A stretch of 28,422 nt of DNA from IMG/VR virus record IMGVR_UViG_3300042563_001949, positions 1-28,422 of that record, one strand, 5' to 3'. The translations under genes were made by a program, and so were the position numbers. Source of the stretch: a virus. The notes under the pieces are model-generated. The model was not told where the DNA came from. It did no database searches and saw only the letters and a list, made by a program, of their open reading frames with translations. The first letter of the stretch is position 1. Every line of letters begins with the position of its first letter. Of this stretch, positions 11,630 through 18,564 are shown piece by piece.

Positions 11630-12616
11630 ATGAGCACAATAAATGTAGATATAGTAGACTATTCATCTAATTCATTTCAAAATGTAACAGTAGGAGGAGC
11701 TCCTATTAAAATGCGACCATTACAATATCAACTTAGAGTAGGTACACTTGTTACTCTTGCAACTAATACCGCTCAATATGAAACTTCATTTGGTATTAAT
11801 AATTTAATTAATAGTACGGGTAATGGAAATACAGCATTTGGATTTCAAGTGTTACAATATAACACAACAGGTAATTCAAATGTAGGAGTAGGTTCAAGAG
11901 CATTAAATTTTAATAGCACAGGTAATGGAAATACAGCTGTAGGAGATAGTGCATTACAAACTACTAATGTTGGTTTAGGAAATAGTGCATTAGGTCAAAA
12001 TGCTGGATATTATAACACGGCTGGAAGTGGTAATGTATTTGTTGGAAGTAGTTCTGGATTTGTAAATACTACAGGTAATTCAAACACATATGTTGGAACT
12101 GGAGCAGGTAATTCAATGACTACTGGAAATGGAAATATTTTTGTAGGAAGTAGCGCTGGATATAATCATATTAGTGGTGGCAATAATGTGTTTGTGGGTA
12201 ATTCATCAACTGGAGCTACAAACACAGCTAGTGATTCTATTACCCTAGGTAACAGTTCTAATAATGTTTTAAGATGTGCAGTAACATCTATAACATCTCT
12301 TTCAGATGTAAGAGATAAAGAAGATGTTGTTGAATTAACAGCAGGTTTAGAATTTGTTAATGAACTTAACCCAGTATCTTTTGTATGGAATGACAGAGAT
12401 GAAAATGGTAAGCATGGTGTAAAAGACTTTGGTTTTATTGCACAAGACTTAAAAGCTACTCAAGAAAAACATGATATGGCTGAAACATTAGGTTTAGTAT
12501 ATGAAGAAAACCCAGAGAAGTTAGAGGCAAGTTACGGAAAATTAATTCCTATTCTTGTTAAAGCTATTAAAGAATTGTCTTCTAAAGTAGAAGCATTAGA
12601 ATCAAAAAAGAAATAA
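11630..12616 (+). CDS. YadA-like fibre with S74 intramolecular chaperone, 328 aa
   Basis: Residues about 45-205 are about 20-24-residue repeats with a G-N-G/S-N-T-x-x-G core (TGNGNTAFG, TGNSNVGVG, TGNGNTAVG, TGNSNTYVG, TGNGNIFVG), as in the head domain of trimeric adhesins. From about 223 the endosialidase-type chaperone domain (Peptidase_S74) begins at SLSDVRDKEDV and includes FGFIAQDLK and YGKLIPILVKAIKELSSKVE. In this family the domain drives trimerisation, then cuts itself off at the Ser before Asp. First of three tandem paralogues. It lacks the shared N-terminal anchor. Confidence 0.88.
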   Translation: MSTINVDIVDYSSNSFQNVTVGGAPIKMRPLQYQLRVGTLVTLATNTAQYETSFGINNLINSTGNGNTAFGFQVLQYNTTGNSNVGVGSRALNFNSTGNGNTAVGDSALQTTNVGLGNSALGQNAGYYNTAGSGNVFVGSSSGFVNTTGNSNTYVGTGAGNSMTTGNGNIFVGSSAGYNHISGGNNVFVGNSSTGATNTASDSITLGNSSNNVLRCAVTSITSLSDVRDKEDVVELTAGLEFVNELNPVSFVWNDRDENGKHGVKDFGFIAQDLKATQEKHDMAETLGLVYEENPEKLEASYGKLIPILVKAIKELSSKVEALESKKK

Positions 12617-12642
12617 TAATAACAATACTTAAAAAATAAATT

Positions 12643-13638
12643 ATGCCAACACCAGCTTATTTAAACGTAGATATAATAAATCCATCAGGAACTACTGATG
12701 TTATAGTAAATGGAATTCAGTTAAAATCTTTAGCTGGAGGTCCAGGTACTGTAAATAAATATATTGGGACATCAGCGCCTGCATCATTAACAGCTAATGC
12801 CAATCTTATGGTTGGTAGTGGAGGAAGTGGTATTAGTACAGGAAATCGTAATACTGTATTAGGTTTGTTTAGCGGAGGCTCCATAACAACTGGTGATGAT
12901 AATGTTGCAATAGGCACTGGAGTTTTGTCAGTTACTAATTTTGGTTCTGACAATATAGCAATAGGTAGAAATTCACTTGCACTGGTAACAAATCCGTTTG
13001 GTGAAGTAGCAATTGGTCATTTGGCTAATCAATTTTTTACAACTGCAACTGTTGGTCCTAATACAGCTGTTGGACATAGAGCGTTGTGGCAAAATTTAAC
13101 AGGTGGAGAGAATACAGCATTAGGCGTTGAGGCAGGTGCTTATATTACAACAGGCTCAGGTAATACTTTTTTAGGATCATATACAGGTGCACTTGCCACT
13201 ACCGGTACAAACAATATTTGTATTGGGCATGGTTCTACAACGCCTGCACCAACTACTAGTAATTCAATTACTTTAGGTAATATTTCTAATAATGTTTTAA
13301 GATGTGCTGTTACTTCTATAACATCATTGTCTGATTCTAGAGATAAGGAAGATGTTAAAGATTTAAGCACAGGTTTAGATTTTGTGAAATCTTTACGACC
13401 TGTAGAATTTACATGGAATGACAGAGATGAAGCTGGTAAACACGGTGTAGCTGATTTTGGATTCATTGCTCAAGACTTGAAGAAAGCACAAGAAGATGCT
13501 GAAAAAGCAGAAGTTCTTAAGTTAGTTTATGATGAGAATCCAGAGAAACTTGAAGCATCATACGGTAAACTTATTCCTATCCTTGTTAAGGCAATACAGG
13601 AATTATCTGCTGAGGTAACTTCATTGAAAAAGAAATAA
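12643..13638 (+). CDS. YadA-like fibre with S74 intramolecular chaperone, paralogue 2, 331 aa
   Basis: Same plan as the gene before it: N-terminal PAYLNVDIINPSGTTDVIVN, adhesin-head repeats (TGDDNVAIG, GSDNIAIG, GGENTALG, GSGNTFLG) and a C-terminal S74 chaperone starting SLSDSRDKEDV, with FGFIAQDLKKAQED. The upstream spacer AATAATAACAATACTTAAAA is repeated before paralogue 3. The head repeats diverge more than the chaperone between paralogues, as expected if the tips vary for receptor choice and the folding domain is retained. Confidence 0.88.
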   Translation: MPTPAYLNVDIINPSGTTDVIVNGIQLKSLAGGPGTVNKYIGTSAPASLTANANLMVGSGGSGISTGNRNTVLGLFSGGSITTGDDNVAIGTGVLSVTNFGSDNIAIGRNSLALVTNPFGEVAIGHLANQFFTTATVGPNTAVGHRALWQNLTGGENTALGVEAGAYITTGSGNTFLGSYTGALATTGTNNICIGHGSTTPAPTTSNSITLGNISNNVLRCAVTSITSLSDSRDKEDVKDLSTGLDFVKSLRPVEFTWNDRDEAGKHGVADFGFIAQDLKKAQEDAEKAEVLKLVYDENPEKLEASYGKLIPILVKAIQELSAEVTSLKKK

Positions 13639-13670
13639 TAATAATAATAACAATACTTAAAAAATAAATT

Positions 13671-14708
13671 ATGCCAATTATACCAGCAACTTTAAACGTA
13701 GATATAATAAATCCTTCAACAGGACCTAGCGTTACTGTAAACGGAATAATAGTAAGTTCTTATGCTGGTAGTAACTTCAACATAGGATCTCTTCAGACTG
13801 GAATGACTGTAGGAGCTAATAACAATACTTCCGTAGGTAGTAGTGCAGGTTCATCAATAACAACAGGTTATCAAAATACTGCAGTAGGTACAGGAGCGCT
13901 TCCTTCTTGTACAACAGGACATGATAATGTTGCTATTGGACCAAGTTCATTACAGAATCTTGTTACTGGAACAGATAATATAGCTATTGGAAGTTTTTCA
14001 GCATATTCACAAACTGGTAATTTTGATACAATTGCTATAGGAAGAGATGCATTAAGATTTTGTACAGATTATGCAAATATAGCAATCGGAACTAATTCAC
14101 TCAGAACTCTAGTTACTGGATTTAATAATTGCGCAGTTGGCAGATATTCTTTTTCAAATACAACAAGCGGTTCAGGAAATACAGGTTTTGGTTTTCTATC
14201 TGGTCAAGCATTTGTTTCTGGAAGCAACAATACATTTATTGGATATTCTACAGGAGATGCAACACTTTTAAATGGAAGTAATAATACACTTATTGGATAT
14301 GATGCAGAGCCATCAACATCTTCTACTAGTAATCAAATAACACTTGGTAATGCATCTATTACATCTTTAAGATGTGCAGTAACATCTATCACTTCATTAT
14401 CTGATGCAAGAGACAAAAAAGAAATTACTGAACTACCTGTAGGTCTTGAATTTATAGAAGGTTTAAAACCAGTATCTTTTACATGGGATGATAGAGCAGA
14501 AGAAGGAAAACATGATGTTAAAGATTTTGGATTTATAGCACAAGATTTAAAGAAGTCTCAAGAAGATGCAGAATTATCTGATGTACTTAAATTAGTATAC
14601 GAAGAGAATCCTGAAAAGTTAGAAGCTAGCTATGGTAAACTTATACCTATTTTAGTTAAAGCTATACAAGAGTTATCTGCTGAAGTTAAACAATTAAAAA
14701 ATAAATAA
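13671..14708 (+). CDS. YadA-like fibre with S74 intramolecular chaperone, paralogue 3, 345 aa
   Basis: N-terminal PATLNVDIINPSTGPSVTVN is close to paralogue 2, followed by adhesin-head repeats (TGYQNTAVG, TGHDNVAIG, GTDNIAIG, GSNNTFIG) and the S74 domain from SLSDARDKKEI, with FGFIAQDLKKSQED and a C-terminal coiled stretch. The stop codon overlaps the ATG of the next gene (TAATG), so translation is coupled to the collagen-like fibre. Confidence 0.88.
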   Translation: MPIIPATLNVDIINPSTGPSVTVNGIIVSSYAGSNFNIGSLQTGMTVGANNNTSVGSSAGSSITTGYQNTAVGTGALPSCTTGHDNVAIGPSSLQNLVTGTDNIAIGSFSAYSQTGNFDTIAIGRDALRFCTDYANIAIGTNSLRTLVTGFNNCAVGRYSFSNTTSGSGNTGFGFLSGQAFVSGSNNTFIGYSTGDATLLNGSNNTLIGYDAEPSTSSTSNQITLGNASITSLRCAVTSITSLSDARDKKEITELPVGLEFIEGLKPVSFTWDDRAEEGKHDVKDFGFIAQDLKKSQEDAELSDVLKLVYEENPEKLEASYGKLIPILVKAIQELSAEVKQLKNK

Positions 14709-15766
14709 TGGATATTTTAAACTGGATATACTTAAAGACACATAATCTTATTAGGATAACTCCTAATGATCCTGCTACAGACTTAATTGTATTAGGTGCT
14801 GAAGTACCAACAAAAAGATCTGATAAATATCAAACATATGCTATGACAATAGCAGACTTTACTGCACAGTTAGGACCTGGTCCAGTAGGACCACAAGGAC
14901 CACAAGGAGTGCAGGGTGTACAAGGTATTCAGGGTAATCAGGGAATTCAAGGTATACAAGGTAATACAGGTGCTCAAGGAACAGCAGGTAACTCTGTAAC
15001 TATATTAGGATCTGTTGCAGATTTAGCAGCATTTTTAGTAGGTCCTGGTGCATCTCCTGGTGCTAATATAGGTGATGCATGGATATTACTTTCTGATGGA
15101 AGTTTAATGACATGGAATGGAACTATATGGTTTGATGCTGGTGATATTCAAGGACCTCCAGGAGCAACTGGTGCTACCGGTGCACAAGGAGTACAAGGTA
15201 ACCAAGGAATACAAGGTGTGCAAGGAGTACAAGGAATACAAGGTCCTGCAGGATTACCAGGTTTATTTGCTCAAACTGCAGATAGTACACCTGTTACAGC
15301 TACTATAGTTGAATCTTCATTAATAGGAACTGGTGTTGGTACATTAACTGTTCCTGCAAATGGATTTTCTATTGGAGATAGTTTTACTGCATTTTTTGAT
15401 GGAAGAATTAGTTGTGTTGGAACTGCAACTTTACATATTAAAGTTAAAACTTTAACAGGAGTTTTATTAGCTGATACAGGTATAATTGCAATGGATGCAG
15501 CTACAGATCATAATTGGAAATTAGATTTGCAATTTACAATAAGAACATTAGGAACAACAGGAGTAGCTTCTATATCTTCAGGAGGACTATTTGGATATGT
15601 TAAAAATTCAGGTAATAACTATGAAGGTTATGTATTAAGTACAGTTAACAATACAACTTTTAATACAACAATAAATAACACTTTGATAGTAACAGCTCAA
15701 TGGAATACAACCAATGCTGGAAATTCAATATTTTCAAGAAACTTTACACTTACTAAAGTATATTAA
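14708..15766 (+). CDS. Collagen-like tail fibre with C-terminal beta domain, 352 aa
   Basis: The N-terminus MDILNWIYLKTHNLIRIT followed by a YAMTIADFTAQL segment is a diverged form of the shared anchor. Two collagen-like blocks of G-P-Q/G-V-Q/G-I-Q triplets (about 57-96 and 147-185) flank a domain with LAAFLVGPGASPGANIGD and WNGTIWFDAG, a phage-fibre pattern near tips. From about 190 a jelly-roll-like all-beta domain follows, perhaps a TNF/C1q-like trimer head that binds receptors. Gln at the Y position rather than hydroxyproline-type Pro is common in phage collagens. Confidence 0.8.
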   Translation: MDILNWIYLKTHNLIRITPNDPATDLIVLGAEVPTKRSDKYQTYAMTIADFTAQLGPGPVGPQGPQGVQGVQGIQGNQGIQGIQGNTGAQGTAGNSVTILGSVADLAAFLVGPGASPGANIGDAWILLSDGSLMTWNGTIWFDAGDIQGPPGATGATGAQGVQGNQGIQGVQGVQGIQGPAGLPGLFAQTADSTPVTATIVESSLIGTGVGTLTVPANGFSIGDSFTAFFDGRISCVGTATLHIKVKTLTGVLLADTGIIAMDAATDHNWKLDLQFTIRTLGTTGVASISSGGLFGYVKNSGNNYEGYVLSTVNNTTFNTTINNTLIVTAQWNTTNAGNSIFSRNFTLTKVY

Positions 15767-15785: not shown

Positions 15786-16133
15786 ATGTCAATAGGAGAT
15801 ACTAAATCATACGGAAATAAAGGAAATAATTTCCCGTGGCAATTAAAAATGTTGCAAGGATTACAAGGTATCATTGATGCTTTAACAGTAGGAACTTGTT
15901 GTCCACCTGAAATAAGAAATACTAATATTGTTTCTGCTACAGGAATAGGTACTGTACCTGCTAATACATATAGTCTTTCTATAGCAAATGTTGGAAATGC
16001 AGCAGGATCAGTAGGTGGAGTTTCAGTACCAGCAGGAGTAGTAATTAACTATAATGCAGAACTAAACAATACTCTAACAGGAATAGCTTATAATGCAACA
16101 GGAACTACATTTTTAATTACTTATATATCTTAA
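15786..16133 (+). CDS. Small virion-associated protein, 115 aa
   Basis: The N-terminal segment MSIGDTKSYGNKGNNFPWQL followed by KMLQGLQGIID recurs in my memory in proteins of Bacteroidota phages. An internal CCPPE is followed by a C-terminal beta domain (YSLSIANVGNAAGSVGGVSV) that resembles surface-exposed decoration or fibre-base proteins. It sits between fibre and Cys-rich genes and ends 1 nt before the next ATG. Structural role inferred. Confidence 0.65.
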   Translation: MSIGDTKSYGNKGNNFPWQLKMLQGLQGIIDALTVGTCCPPEIRNTNIVSATGIGTVPANTYSLSIANVGNAAGSVGGVSVPAGVVINYNAELNNTLTGIAYNATGTTFLITYIS

Positions 16134-16134
16134 G

Positions 16135-18003
16135 ATGAGCACACAGATATTTACATCCCCGCAAGATAATTGTAAAGTTGATCATATTAAAGTAGCAACA
16201 TTAGCTAGTAGTTTTGATACTAGTGATGGATTCTCTAATAATGATGACTGGGCTTTTATAGGTGGAGGATACAGTTGGATGTCTAATCCTACAGATTTTC
16301 CTACTACAGCATTAGGTGGTAATATATTAAATGTTCCAACAAGATTTCCATCTATGGCAATTATATTACCTGTAGATGTAGATGTAAATGATATTATAAC
16401 TTTACAAGGAATAGCACTTGGAGCTGGAAATGGAGCCAATGCTTGTCAATTCTTAATAGGTGTATCATATGTAGATTGTAATGAGTTTGCAAATTCTAGA
16501 GAAAAAGTTAATGTATTTACATTAATACCTGCAGAATTATTTCCTCAAACACCAGCAGTTAATTTTACTACTTGTTTTTCTTTAGAAACAACAGGTGTAA
16601 CATTACCAGCAGGTACACTATTATTTGTTGGAGTAAATTGCCCTACTTTTTATAATTCTTCTGCTAATTGTAATTTTTCATATACACTTGATATTACTAA
16701 ATCTTGTGCACCAATACCAGTAATTACAAATGTAAGAATTCAAAACTGTTGTGAACAAGCAGTATTTGAAGTTATAAGTTTAAATACTCAAAACTTACCA
16801 GCATCAGGAACATTCTCAGATACAGAAGGTAACTGTTGGACAATTATAGGAATAACATCAGATCCTATAGATACTGTAAGATTTGTTGATACTCCATATG
16901 ATGATTGTGCTGCATGTCTTATTGCTAATCCATGTCCGATGAATTTAACTGTAGTATCATGTTGTAGTGGTCAACCTGAATCATTTACAGGATCATTACC
17001 AGGAATTAATGTAGGTGATACATTTATAGATACTTATGGTTTCTGTTGGAATGTAACAGCAGAAACATCTGGTCCAATAACTGGAATAGTAATAGTTGAT
17101 TCAATTACTGCAGGTTGTGAAGTTTGTATTACTACACCAGGAGCATGTCCTGATGTTTACAACTTAACAAGTTGTTGTGAAGTAAGAGTAAATTTATTTA
17201 CAACACTTGATCTTCTTGGTTCTGGTGTAATTGGTGGAGATACATTTATGGATCAATATGGATATTGTTGGCAAATATCACCTACACCTCAGCCAGGTTT
17301 CACTGTTAATGCAGCATTTATTCAAGCAGTAACTAATTATGGTCCTGGTGCATGTCAAACATGTATTCTTGATTTAGATAATTGTAGAGTTCCTGTAATT
17401 TACAAAGTACAAAATTGTTGTTCTGGAATAATAGAATATGTTAGTTATACCTTTGGACTTGATGTAGATGCTGTTATTAGTATTTCAACTATAGTAACAC
17501 CAGCTGAATTTACATGTTATACAGTTCTTGATTGGGATAATACAACTACTCCAACTATTACTATTGATACTTTTGATGGTGTATATGAAGATTGTAGAGA
17601 GTGTGGAAGCTGTCCTAATTTTTATATAGCATATGATTGTGCTGAGATATTAGAACCTCAAGTTGTCTATACTACTATTCTTGGACCACTACCATATTCA
17701 TTTGTAACTAATGATGGTAATTGTTGGTATAGTGACGGTAAAATAACTTCAGGACCTGCAACTATTACAGTATCAAGAAAAACTAAAAATTGTGGAATAT
17801 GTTCAACGGAAGGTTTTTATACTGCTGTAGCTTGTGATGGTGTATCACCAAATGAAGTTATATTTGTAGCTGATACTCAAGTAGGATTAGTTACAGTAGG
17901 TAATAATGGTAATTGTTATACTATAACAACTCCAACATCAGGACCTCAAACAATTACTTCTATTGGTGCTTATACTTCAGATTGTGGAACTTGCGTACCT
18001 TAA
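16135..18003 (+). CDS. Large Cys-rich repeat appendage protein, 622 aa
   Basis: Residues 1-200 form a beta-rich head (WAFIGGGYSWMSNPTDFPTT; a possible lectin-like domain). From about 203 to the end there are about six modules of 60-80 residues. Each has an opening C-C or D-C, then about 30 residues, a G-x-C-W or N-C-Y/W, then about 25 residues and a closing C-x2-C (NCCEQ, GNCWT, CAAC; SCCSG, GFCWN, CEVC; SCCEV, GYCWQ, CQTC; and so on). The last modules lose one Cys of the CC pair. Many Cys in a protein probably exposed outside the cell suggests disulphide staples or metal binding. I do not know a named family. Confidence 0.75.
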   Translation: MSTQIFTSPQDNCKVDHIKVATLASSFDTSDGFSNNDDWAFIGGGYSWMSNPTDFPTTALGGNILNVPTRFPSMAIILPVDVDVNDIITLQGIALGAGNGANACQFLIGVSYVDCNEFANSREKVNVFTLIPAELFPQTPAVNFTTCFSLETTGVTLPAGTLLFVGVNCPTFYNSSANCNFSYTLDITKSCAPIPVITNVRIQNCCEQAVFEVISLNTQNLPASGTFSDTEGNCWTIIGITSDPIDTVRFVDTPYDDCAACLIANPCPMNLTVVSCCSGQPESFTGSLPGINVGDTFIDTYGFCWNVTAETSGPITGIVIVDSITAGCEVCITTPGACPDVYNLTSCCEVRVNLFTTLDLLGSGVIGGDTFMDQYGYCWQISPTPQPGFTVNAAFIQAVTNYGPGACQTCILDLDNCRVPVIYKVQNCCSGIIEYVSYTFGLDVDAVISISTIVTPAEFTCYTVLDWDNTTTPTITIDTFDGVYEDCRECGSCPNFYIAYDCAEILEPQVVYTTILGPLPYSFVTNDGNCWYSDGKITSGPATITVSRKTKNCGICSTEGFYTAVACDGVSPNEVIFVADTQVGLVTVGNNGNCYTITTPTSGPQTITSIGAYTSDCGTCVP

Positions 18004-18015
18004 TAAAAAATAAAA

Positions 18016-18564
18016 ATGAAAACATTATTTACAAAATTAGTAACAGCATCAGGATATAGAGACATGAATCATTTTGTAGATAGTGCATTTCATCCACAGA
18101 TGGCAGGAACATGTGCTGGTTTTAGTATTTTTTTTGCAGGACTTGCTTATTATTTTAATGCAGTGTTTGGAATTGTTTTACCAGTAGGTATTGGTATTAT
18201 TATACTTTTTGCTCTTGAGTTTTATACAGGACTTAAAGCATCTAGAAAAGAAGGTAAACAATTTGATTCAGAACTTTTTGGTAAAGGTTGGTTTAAGCTT
18301 TTTGTGTATATGTTAATGATAGGAATATCTCATGCAATGGCAGAGAACATAATTATTAAACCTGTATTTGAAGTAAAGTTTAATATATATGAATGGCTAC
18401 ATTATGGTTTTTATAATTATATTATTATAAATTTGTTCTGGTCAAACTTAGAAAACTTTAAAAGACTAGGTTGGACAGAATACATACCTTTGCTAAAAGA
18501 ATTATCAAAGCATATTAAAGATGAACCAATAAAAATAACAAAAAATGAAAGACAAAACCCTTAA
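18016..18564 (+). CDS. Holin-like membrane protein (Bacteroidota holin type), 182 aa
   Basis: Three to four hydrophobic segments: about 33-50 (GFSIFFAGLAYYFNAVFG), 53-72 (LPVGIGIIILFALEFYTGL), 92-108 (LFVYMLMIGISHAM) and a weaker one near 130-145. The TM2-loop motif EFYTGLKASRKEGKQFDSE resembles the TG-x-x-A-S/x-x-EG of phage_holin_4-type proteins. N-terminal leader and charged C-tail are cytosolic. First gene of the lysis cassette; overlaps the following ORF by 20 nt. It would form the membrane lesions releasing or activating the endolysin. Confidence 0.7.
   Translation: MKTLFTKLVTASGYRDMNHFVDSAFHPQMAGTCAGFSIFFAGLAYYFNAVFGIVLPVGIGIIILFALEFYTGLKASRKEGKQFDSELFGKGWFKLFVYMLMIGISHAMAENIIIKPVFEVKFNIYEWLHYGFYNYIIINLFWSNLENFKRLGWTEYIPLLKELSKHIKDEPIKITKNERQNP

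Follow-up and report, generated by a model that had tools for sequence, protein, structure and literature searches.

The DNA that we analysed is a 28,422-base IMG/VR fragment (the window) from a phage that, judged by its marker genes, is crassvirus-like: TerL matches phrog_6681 (E 7e-63) and the portal protein phrog_6547 (E 3e-56), both crassvirus-type, and the conserved ring and muzzle genes are represented in a relative, L126, by gp40-, gp43- and gp44-like proteins. A tblastn search with TerL returned mostly crassvirus-type records and also Flavobacterium phages, at ~25% identity. The gene discussed here, P0001, comes at the end of a fibre cluster that encodes collagen-like, beta-helix and S74-chaperone proteins (Table 1). 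Its slot is the last fibre position, since the holin gene at 18016 opens the lysis genes. Elsewhere in the window, three consecutive fibre genes (11630-14708) have different bodies and a common C-terminal S74-type chaperone region.

Table 1. Features of the P0001 locus, in window coordinates, and core Cys-module proteins of relatives, in coordinates of the named record
Feature	Position	Strand	Remarks
Cys-module protein gene P0001	16135..18003	+	complete, ATG to stop; 622 aa, 39 Cys
First 8 codons, MSTQIFTS	16135..16158	+	possible docking peptide
N-terminal domain, aa 1-195	16135..16719	+	all-beta (AlphaFold)
Module 1, aa 196-268	16720..16938	+	6 Cys
Module 2, aa 269-339	16939..17151	+	6 Cys; modelled alone
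Module 3, aa 340-418	17152..17388	+	6 Cys
Module 4, aa 419-494	17389..17616	+	6 Cys
Module 5, aa 495-559	17617..17811	+	4 Cys; lacks one CC Cys and the closing Cys
Module 6, aa 560-622	17812..18000	+	4 Cys; same paired absence as module 5
Holin family protein	18016..18564	+	PF05105, E 9e-9; lysis genes begin here
Conserved 115-aa anchor gene	15786..16133	+	directly 5' of slot; 180 relatives in IMG/VR
Collagen-like fibre	14708..15766	+	C-terminal domain (aa 180-352) fills slot in other phages, ~62-65% identity
Core Cys-module protein	L126:5812-7659	+	4-Cys modules, structural block
Core Cys-module protein	L128:5438-7852	+	4-Cys modules, structural block
Core Cys-module protein	L129:6095-8011	-	4-Cys modules, structural block
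Core Cys-module protein	L127:6181-9141	-	4-Cys modules, structural block

Cysteine makes up 6.3% of P0001, as against 0-1.9% in the 12 other window genes counted. The open reading frame is real, since the frame and all 39 cysteines are kept in full-length relatives (76-81% identity) on independent contigs. In the N-terminal domain, which has an odd number of cysteines (seven), C13, C115, C147 and C191 are unvaried across 22 relatives. Foldseek with the whole P0001 model was dominated by long alignments of poor quality; with this small domain, the most probable matches were TNF-like jelly rolls (probability up to 1.00), at an E of ~1e-3 and a TM over the target of at most 0.48, a low value (0.5 is the match threshold).

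The remainder of the protein (aa 196-622) follows the plan CC ... C(W/Y) ... C-x2-C ... C, and its repetition is beyond chance: P0001 has six degenerate repeats. Compared with shuffles, z is 11 for modules 1-2, 13 for modules 2-3 and 10 for modules 5-6; the most divergent pairs (3-4, 3-5 and 4-5 among them) have no significance alone and can be aligned through intermediates and a profile. A previous sequence-only reading of this DNA had described about six modules with a CC, CW and C-x2-C plan. The number of modules in the 622 residues was right, but the plan is not uniform: C-x2-C is found in 6/6 modules, CC in four (modules 1-4, the same that are closed by a sixth cysteine) and CW also in four (modules 1, 2, 3 and 5), with CY instead in modules 4 and 6, and modules 5 and 6 have only four cysteines.

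The same reading had proposed a new module family, to be abandoned if the protein were recognised as a known one. The sequence of P0001 has no match in Pfam, NCBIfam, PHROGs, PDB sequences or INPHARED (50,697 phage records), module profiles gave only chance-level matches against the PDB, Pfam and PHROGs, and INPHARED holds neither the arrays of the relatives nor the core protein described below; we therefore retain the proposal. In the literature searched, we found no match to phage fibres with a Cys-rich repeat of this kind. GTDB genomes gave no relatives with the patterns used and so indicate no host or prophage. AlphaFold modelling of a single module, one of the checks that had been suggested, agrees with a new family. 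From an alignment of 49 diverse modules, module 2 was predicted (pLDDT 88.1, pTM 0.74) as five strands and a short helix that bears the C-x2-C; the model matched no PDB structure (best E 2.0, TM 0.47). Against predicted viral structures (BFVD) the best match had E 1.5e-3, TM 0.77 and probability 1.00, and the top matches are uncharacterised or unnamed proteins. One match is a 189-aa Cys-poor protein of Sulfitobacter phage phiCB2047-B that adjoins rIIB and that we take, from its length, to be SUFG_00037. As this protein is Cys-poor, the bare fold is wider than the Cys family, and the cysteines seem to have been added to it; for the same reason, and given the position next to rIIB, the fold alone is no proof of an adhesin. 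The module resembles EGF, knottin, sushi and other small disulphide-rich domains in having few residues, six cysteines in three probable pairs and a tolerant surface. However, it has no Pfam match to any of them, and its five strands and helix, with the CC/CW/C-x2-C spacing, match nothing in the PDB.

A search for repeat homologues, also suggested earlier, found IMG/VR relatives with 5, 6, 7 or 8 modules, so the array gains and loses units. Besides the close relatives, free-standing homologues occur at ~30-32% identity (the L061 and L100 groups), and L005 has seven modules with an extra copy in the module 5 region. In other relatives, the array forms the C-terminal end of collagen-like fibres, with eight modules (L093-L098) or five (L026 and L101-L105), in proteins of up to 2815 aa. 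On the strength of these fusions, we regard the C terminus of long fibres as the natural place of the array in the relatives. The collagen-Cys fibres of L026, L093, L097, L098, L102 and L103 are followed by a protein of ~750 aa (L026:5142-7394) that weakly matches a glycosyltransferase (phrog_13126, E 1.8e-6), has a TPR-like stretch and might glycosylate the fibre. The fibres of L093, L097, L098 and L026 also have a common N-terminal motif, C-I-x-Y-x-G-x2-I-x-C ... T-D-T-N or similar; this motif recurs in Cys-rich core-block proteins (L126:9361-10431 and L126:7666-9357) and is possibly a common docking domain.

We surveyed the gene 3' of the 115-aa anchor in all loci and obtained 71 distinct proteins of several unrelated classes. 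Cys-module proteins account for 16/71. A 416-aa family (17/71) matches a phrog_1645 virion structural protein (E 3e-134); its members (L049:4196-5443 and relatives) are ~64% identical to annotated virion structural proteins of Synechococcus cyanophages and Puniceispirillum phage HMO-2011. This similarity points to the passage of a virion part between phages of very different hosts. Another 12 occupants have a C1q-like domain, as at the tip of the window fibre at 14708-15766, four have adhesin-like repeats (Pfam matches to YadA_head, UspA1 and beta-roll), and the remainder include beta-helix-like proteins; the labels C1q-like and beta-helix-like were read from the sequence and are not profile matches. 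In L107, L108 and L110 a 416-aa protein and a Cys-module protein occur together 3' of the anchor. This variety of occupants marks the slot as an exchange site for surface proteins. Most slot proteins, whatever their body, begin with MST, MAT or MGT followed by x-I. The fibres of crAss001 dock via short N-termini (the first 26-58 residues; PMC10172136), and a docking role for the MST-x-I start is therefore plausible. The idea of an appendage at the end of the fibre genes thus gains support: P0001 lies in a fibre cluster, the arrays of its relatives are fused to collagen-like shafts, and the slot is otherwise filled by virion or adhesin-type proteins. Modular C-terminal tips, exchange at a single locus and collagen-like shafts are all features of known exchangeable phage adhesins and fibre tips. 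The differences are that the Cys module is in no listed family and that dN/dS is above 1 around invariant cysteines.

Over the whole gene, dN/dS of P0001 in the window's clade, a pairwise counting estimate made with no codon model, is 1.06-1.68 in 15/15 pairs. When four pairs were bootstrapped, nonsynonymous change exceeded synonymous change in 300, 300, 282 and 200 of 300 replicates. The ratio for other genes in these phages is 0-0.76, with TerL at 0.08-0.21. At synonymous sites the P0001 gene is less divergent (0.09-0.12) than TerL (0.25-0.51), which is consistent with recent exchange. Shallow divergence alone is insufficient to account for the high ratio, since genes with equally low synonymous distance give 0-0.44. 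Other clades lie near or below 1 (0.40-1.19). Within the window's clade none of the 39 cysteines is variable, as against 46% of the non-Cys module residues. We suggest that the rate pattern points to recognition rather than to stability outside the cell and, as part of the explanation set out below and with the same moderate confidence, that the gene is diversifying under positive selection within the slot. The changes are scattered along the gene and are not adenine-specific, and C/T changes are common; given this spread and spectrum, a diversity-generating retroelement (DGR) is not a likely source of the variation.

The cysteines themselves indicate what holds the modules together. Among 116 distinct modules from 20 arrays, 102 have six cysteines, 14 have four and none has an odd number. 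In all 14 the CC partner and the closing cysteine are missing together, and neither is ever missing alone. Module 5 of L076 has lost the CW-Cys together with the second cysteine of C-x2-C, and module 5 of L005 has gained two cysteines. Counting relatedness, there were about four such events, all even. Even numbers with paired loss and gain are what is expected of disulphide-rich domains, and the paired changes argue for disulphides with the pairing proposed below and against a four-ligand metal site. The sequence-only reading had left the choice between disulphide and metal staples open. Modules resembling zinc knuckles or ribbons would fold in the reducing cytoplasm, where virion proteins are made, with no oxidation; every module of P0001 has the C-x2-C pair, and the core set of four cysteines could in principle hold one metal. 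However, that set is not retained, because module 5 of L076 has lost two of the four and would thus be left with half a site, the cysteines come and go in pairs (the 14 modules, and module 5 of both L076 and L005), and the residues inside C-x2-C vary freely (10/12 are variable in the window's clade). We consider metal stapling quite unlikely and conclude that the modules of P0001 are probably disulphide-stapled.

A rival account, in line with the earlier reading's idea of a part that is stable outside the cell, is that of a passive element; P0001 would then decorate or stabilise the particle, and its high dN/dS would reflect relaxed constraint or an escape unrelated to receptor change. Capsid decoration proteins can be dispensable, and structure-locking disulphide-rich virion parts exist in phage Milano (PMC10811340). 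Relaxed constraint, however, brings the ratio towards 1, whereas here it is above 1 in every pair with all cysteines kept, and the slot is common to adhesin-type repeats and fibre tips. We judge this account unlikely. The holin gene directly 3' of P0001 raises another thought, that the protein is no part of the virion and is secreted or associated with lysis, being produced together with the lysis genes beside it. Secreted proteins often contain small Cys-rich modules. Yet inspection by eye shows no signal peptide in P0001, the arrays of its relatives sit on collagen-like fibres and the slot is otherwise occupied by structural proteins of the virion, all of which makes a secreted or lysis protein very improbable.

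Disulphides are chemically reasonable in a crassvirus virion, because that of crAss001 has several (PMC10172136) and the particle of Agrobacterium phage Milano many (PMC10811340). Milano likewise has Cys-rich structural proteins, and real disulphides in the particle are its feature. There, most of the bonds hold subunits of the sheath and baseplate together, in structural proteins with 2.1% cysteine (PMC10811340), whereas the cysteines of P0001, at 6.3%, are apparently paired inside small repeated modules. The fibres of crAss001 (gp21, gp22 and gp29) come from a crassvirus whose fibre genes likewise end at the lysis genes, and disulphides in the virion are a feature of crAss001 (PMC10172136); P0001 and the anchor, however, have no sequence match to gp21-gp30, which lack Cys modules and have 0-10 cysteines each. 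A thioredoxin is encoded in one of eight long relatives (G004, the contig of L097, at 96428-96721; E 3.5e-32). A search for an Erv/ALR oxidase gave no match anywhere, control genomes included, and hence is uninformative.

The module is not confined to the slot. When the module profile was run against five long relatives, each had a further module-bearing ORF (weak in G005), and in four it is a module protein of 621-987 aa with 52-62 cysteines in the structural block (Table 1), between a weakly crAss001 gp34-like gene and gp40-, gp43- and gp44-like genes. This core protein has mainly the 4-Cys plan and is in no family library; in a profile-profile comparison its modules match those of the slot (probability 95.7%, E 9e-9). 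It is also found in 4/7 relatives that were chosen for other slot occupants (the remaining three records may be fragments), and as it is present where the slot holds other proteins, the module is native to these phages. The version in the slot seems to be an expanded form of the core module that has one disulphide more. The L100 genome has, in its structural block, an 880-aa protein (L130:6593-9232, minus strand) that combines a VWA domain and BNR-type repeats with a weak match to the Cys module; it adjoins a 440-aa protein with 31 cysteines. The Cys-stapled beta module could be a general building block of this group of environmental crassvirus-like phages. A four-module 4-Cys version would be conserved in the core structural block, and an expanded 6-Cys version would have been mobilised into the exchange slot, where it would serve as a hypervariable adhesin scaffold that evolves under positive selection while its cysteines stay invariant, with no diversity-generating machinery; we offer this tentatively, with our doubts slightly the weightier. 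The core protein, the exchange-site slot and a dN/dS above 1 with fixed cysteines all go beyond the sequence-only reading.

We favour, as a reasonably probable though not secure explanation, that P0001 is an exchangeable fibre-tip adhesin of the virion in which a fixed scaffold, probably stapled by disulphides, carries a surface that diversifies. It would be a virion surface protein of a crassvirus-like phage, most likely the adhesive distal part of a tail or head fibre, attached through its N-terminal peptide and jelly-roll-like domain. The six modules would follow one another as small beta domains with two or three disulphides each, presumably closed after lysis, on release from the cell. 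We propose that one CC cysteine pairs with the closing cysteine, the CW-Cys with the second cysteine of C-x2-C, and the remaining two with each other. Fixed staples would leave the rest of the module surface free to change. Whole adhesins would be swapped between phages at the exchange slot, and positive selection would diversify P0001 within it, as is to be expected of a surface that recognises the host.

For receptor recognition in environmental crassvirus-like phages, the P0001 family would provide a concrete candidate and a sequence signature with which to find more. It may represent a natural scaffold that combines fixed staples with fast-changing surfaces, a logic comparable to that of animal disulphide-rich binding scaffolds, and it suggests that phages can use disulphide architecture of an extracellular type in the part that contacts the host.
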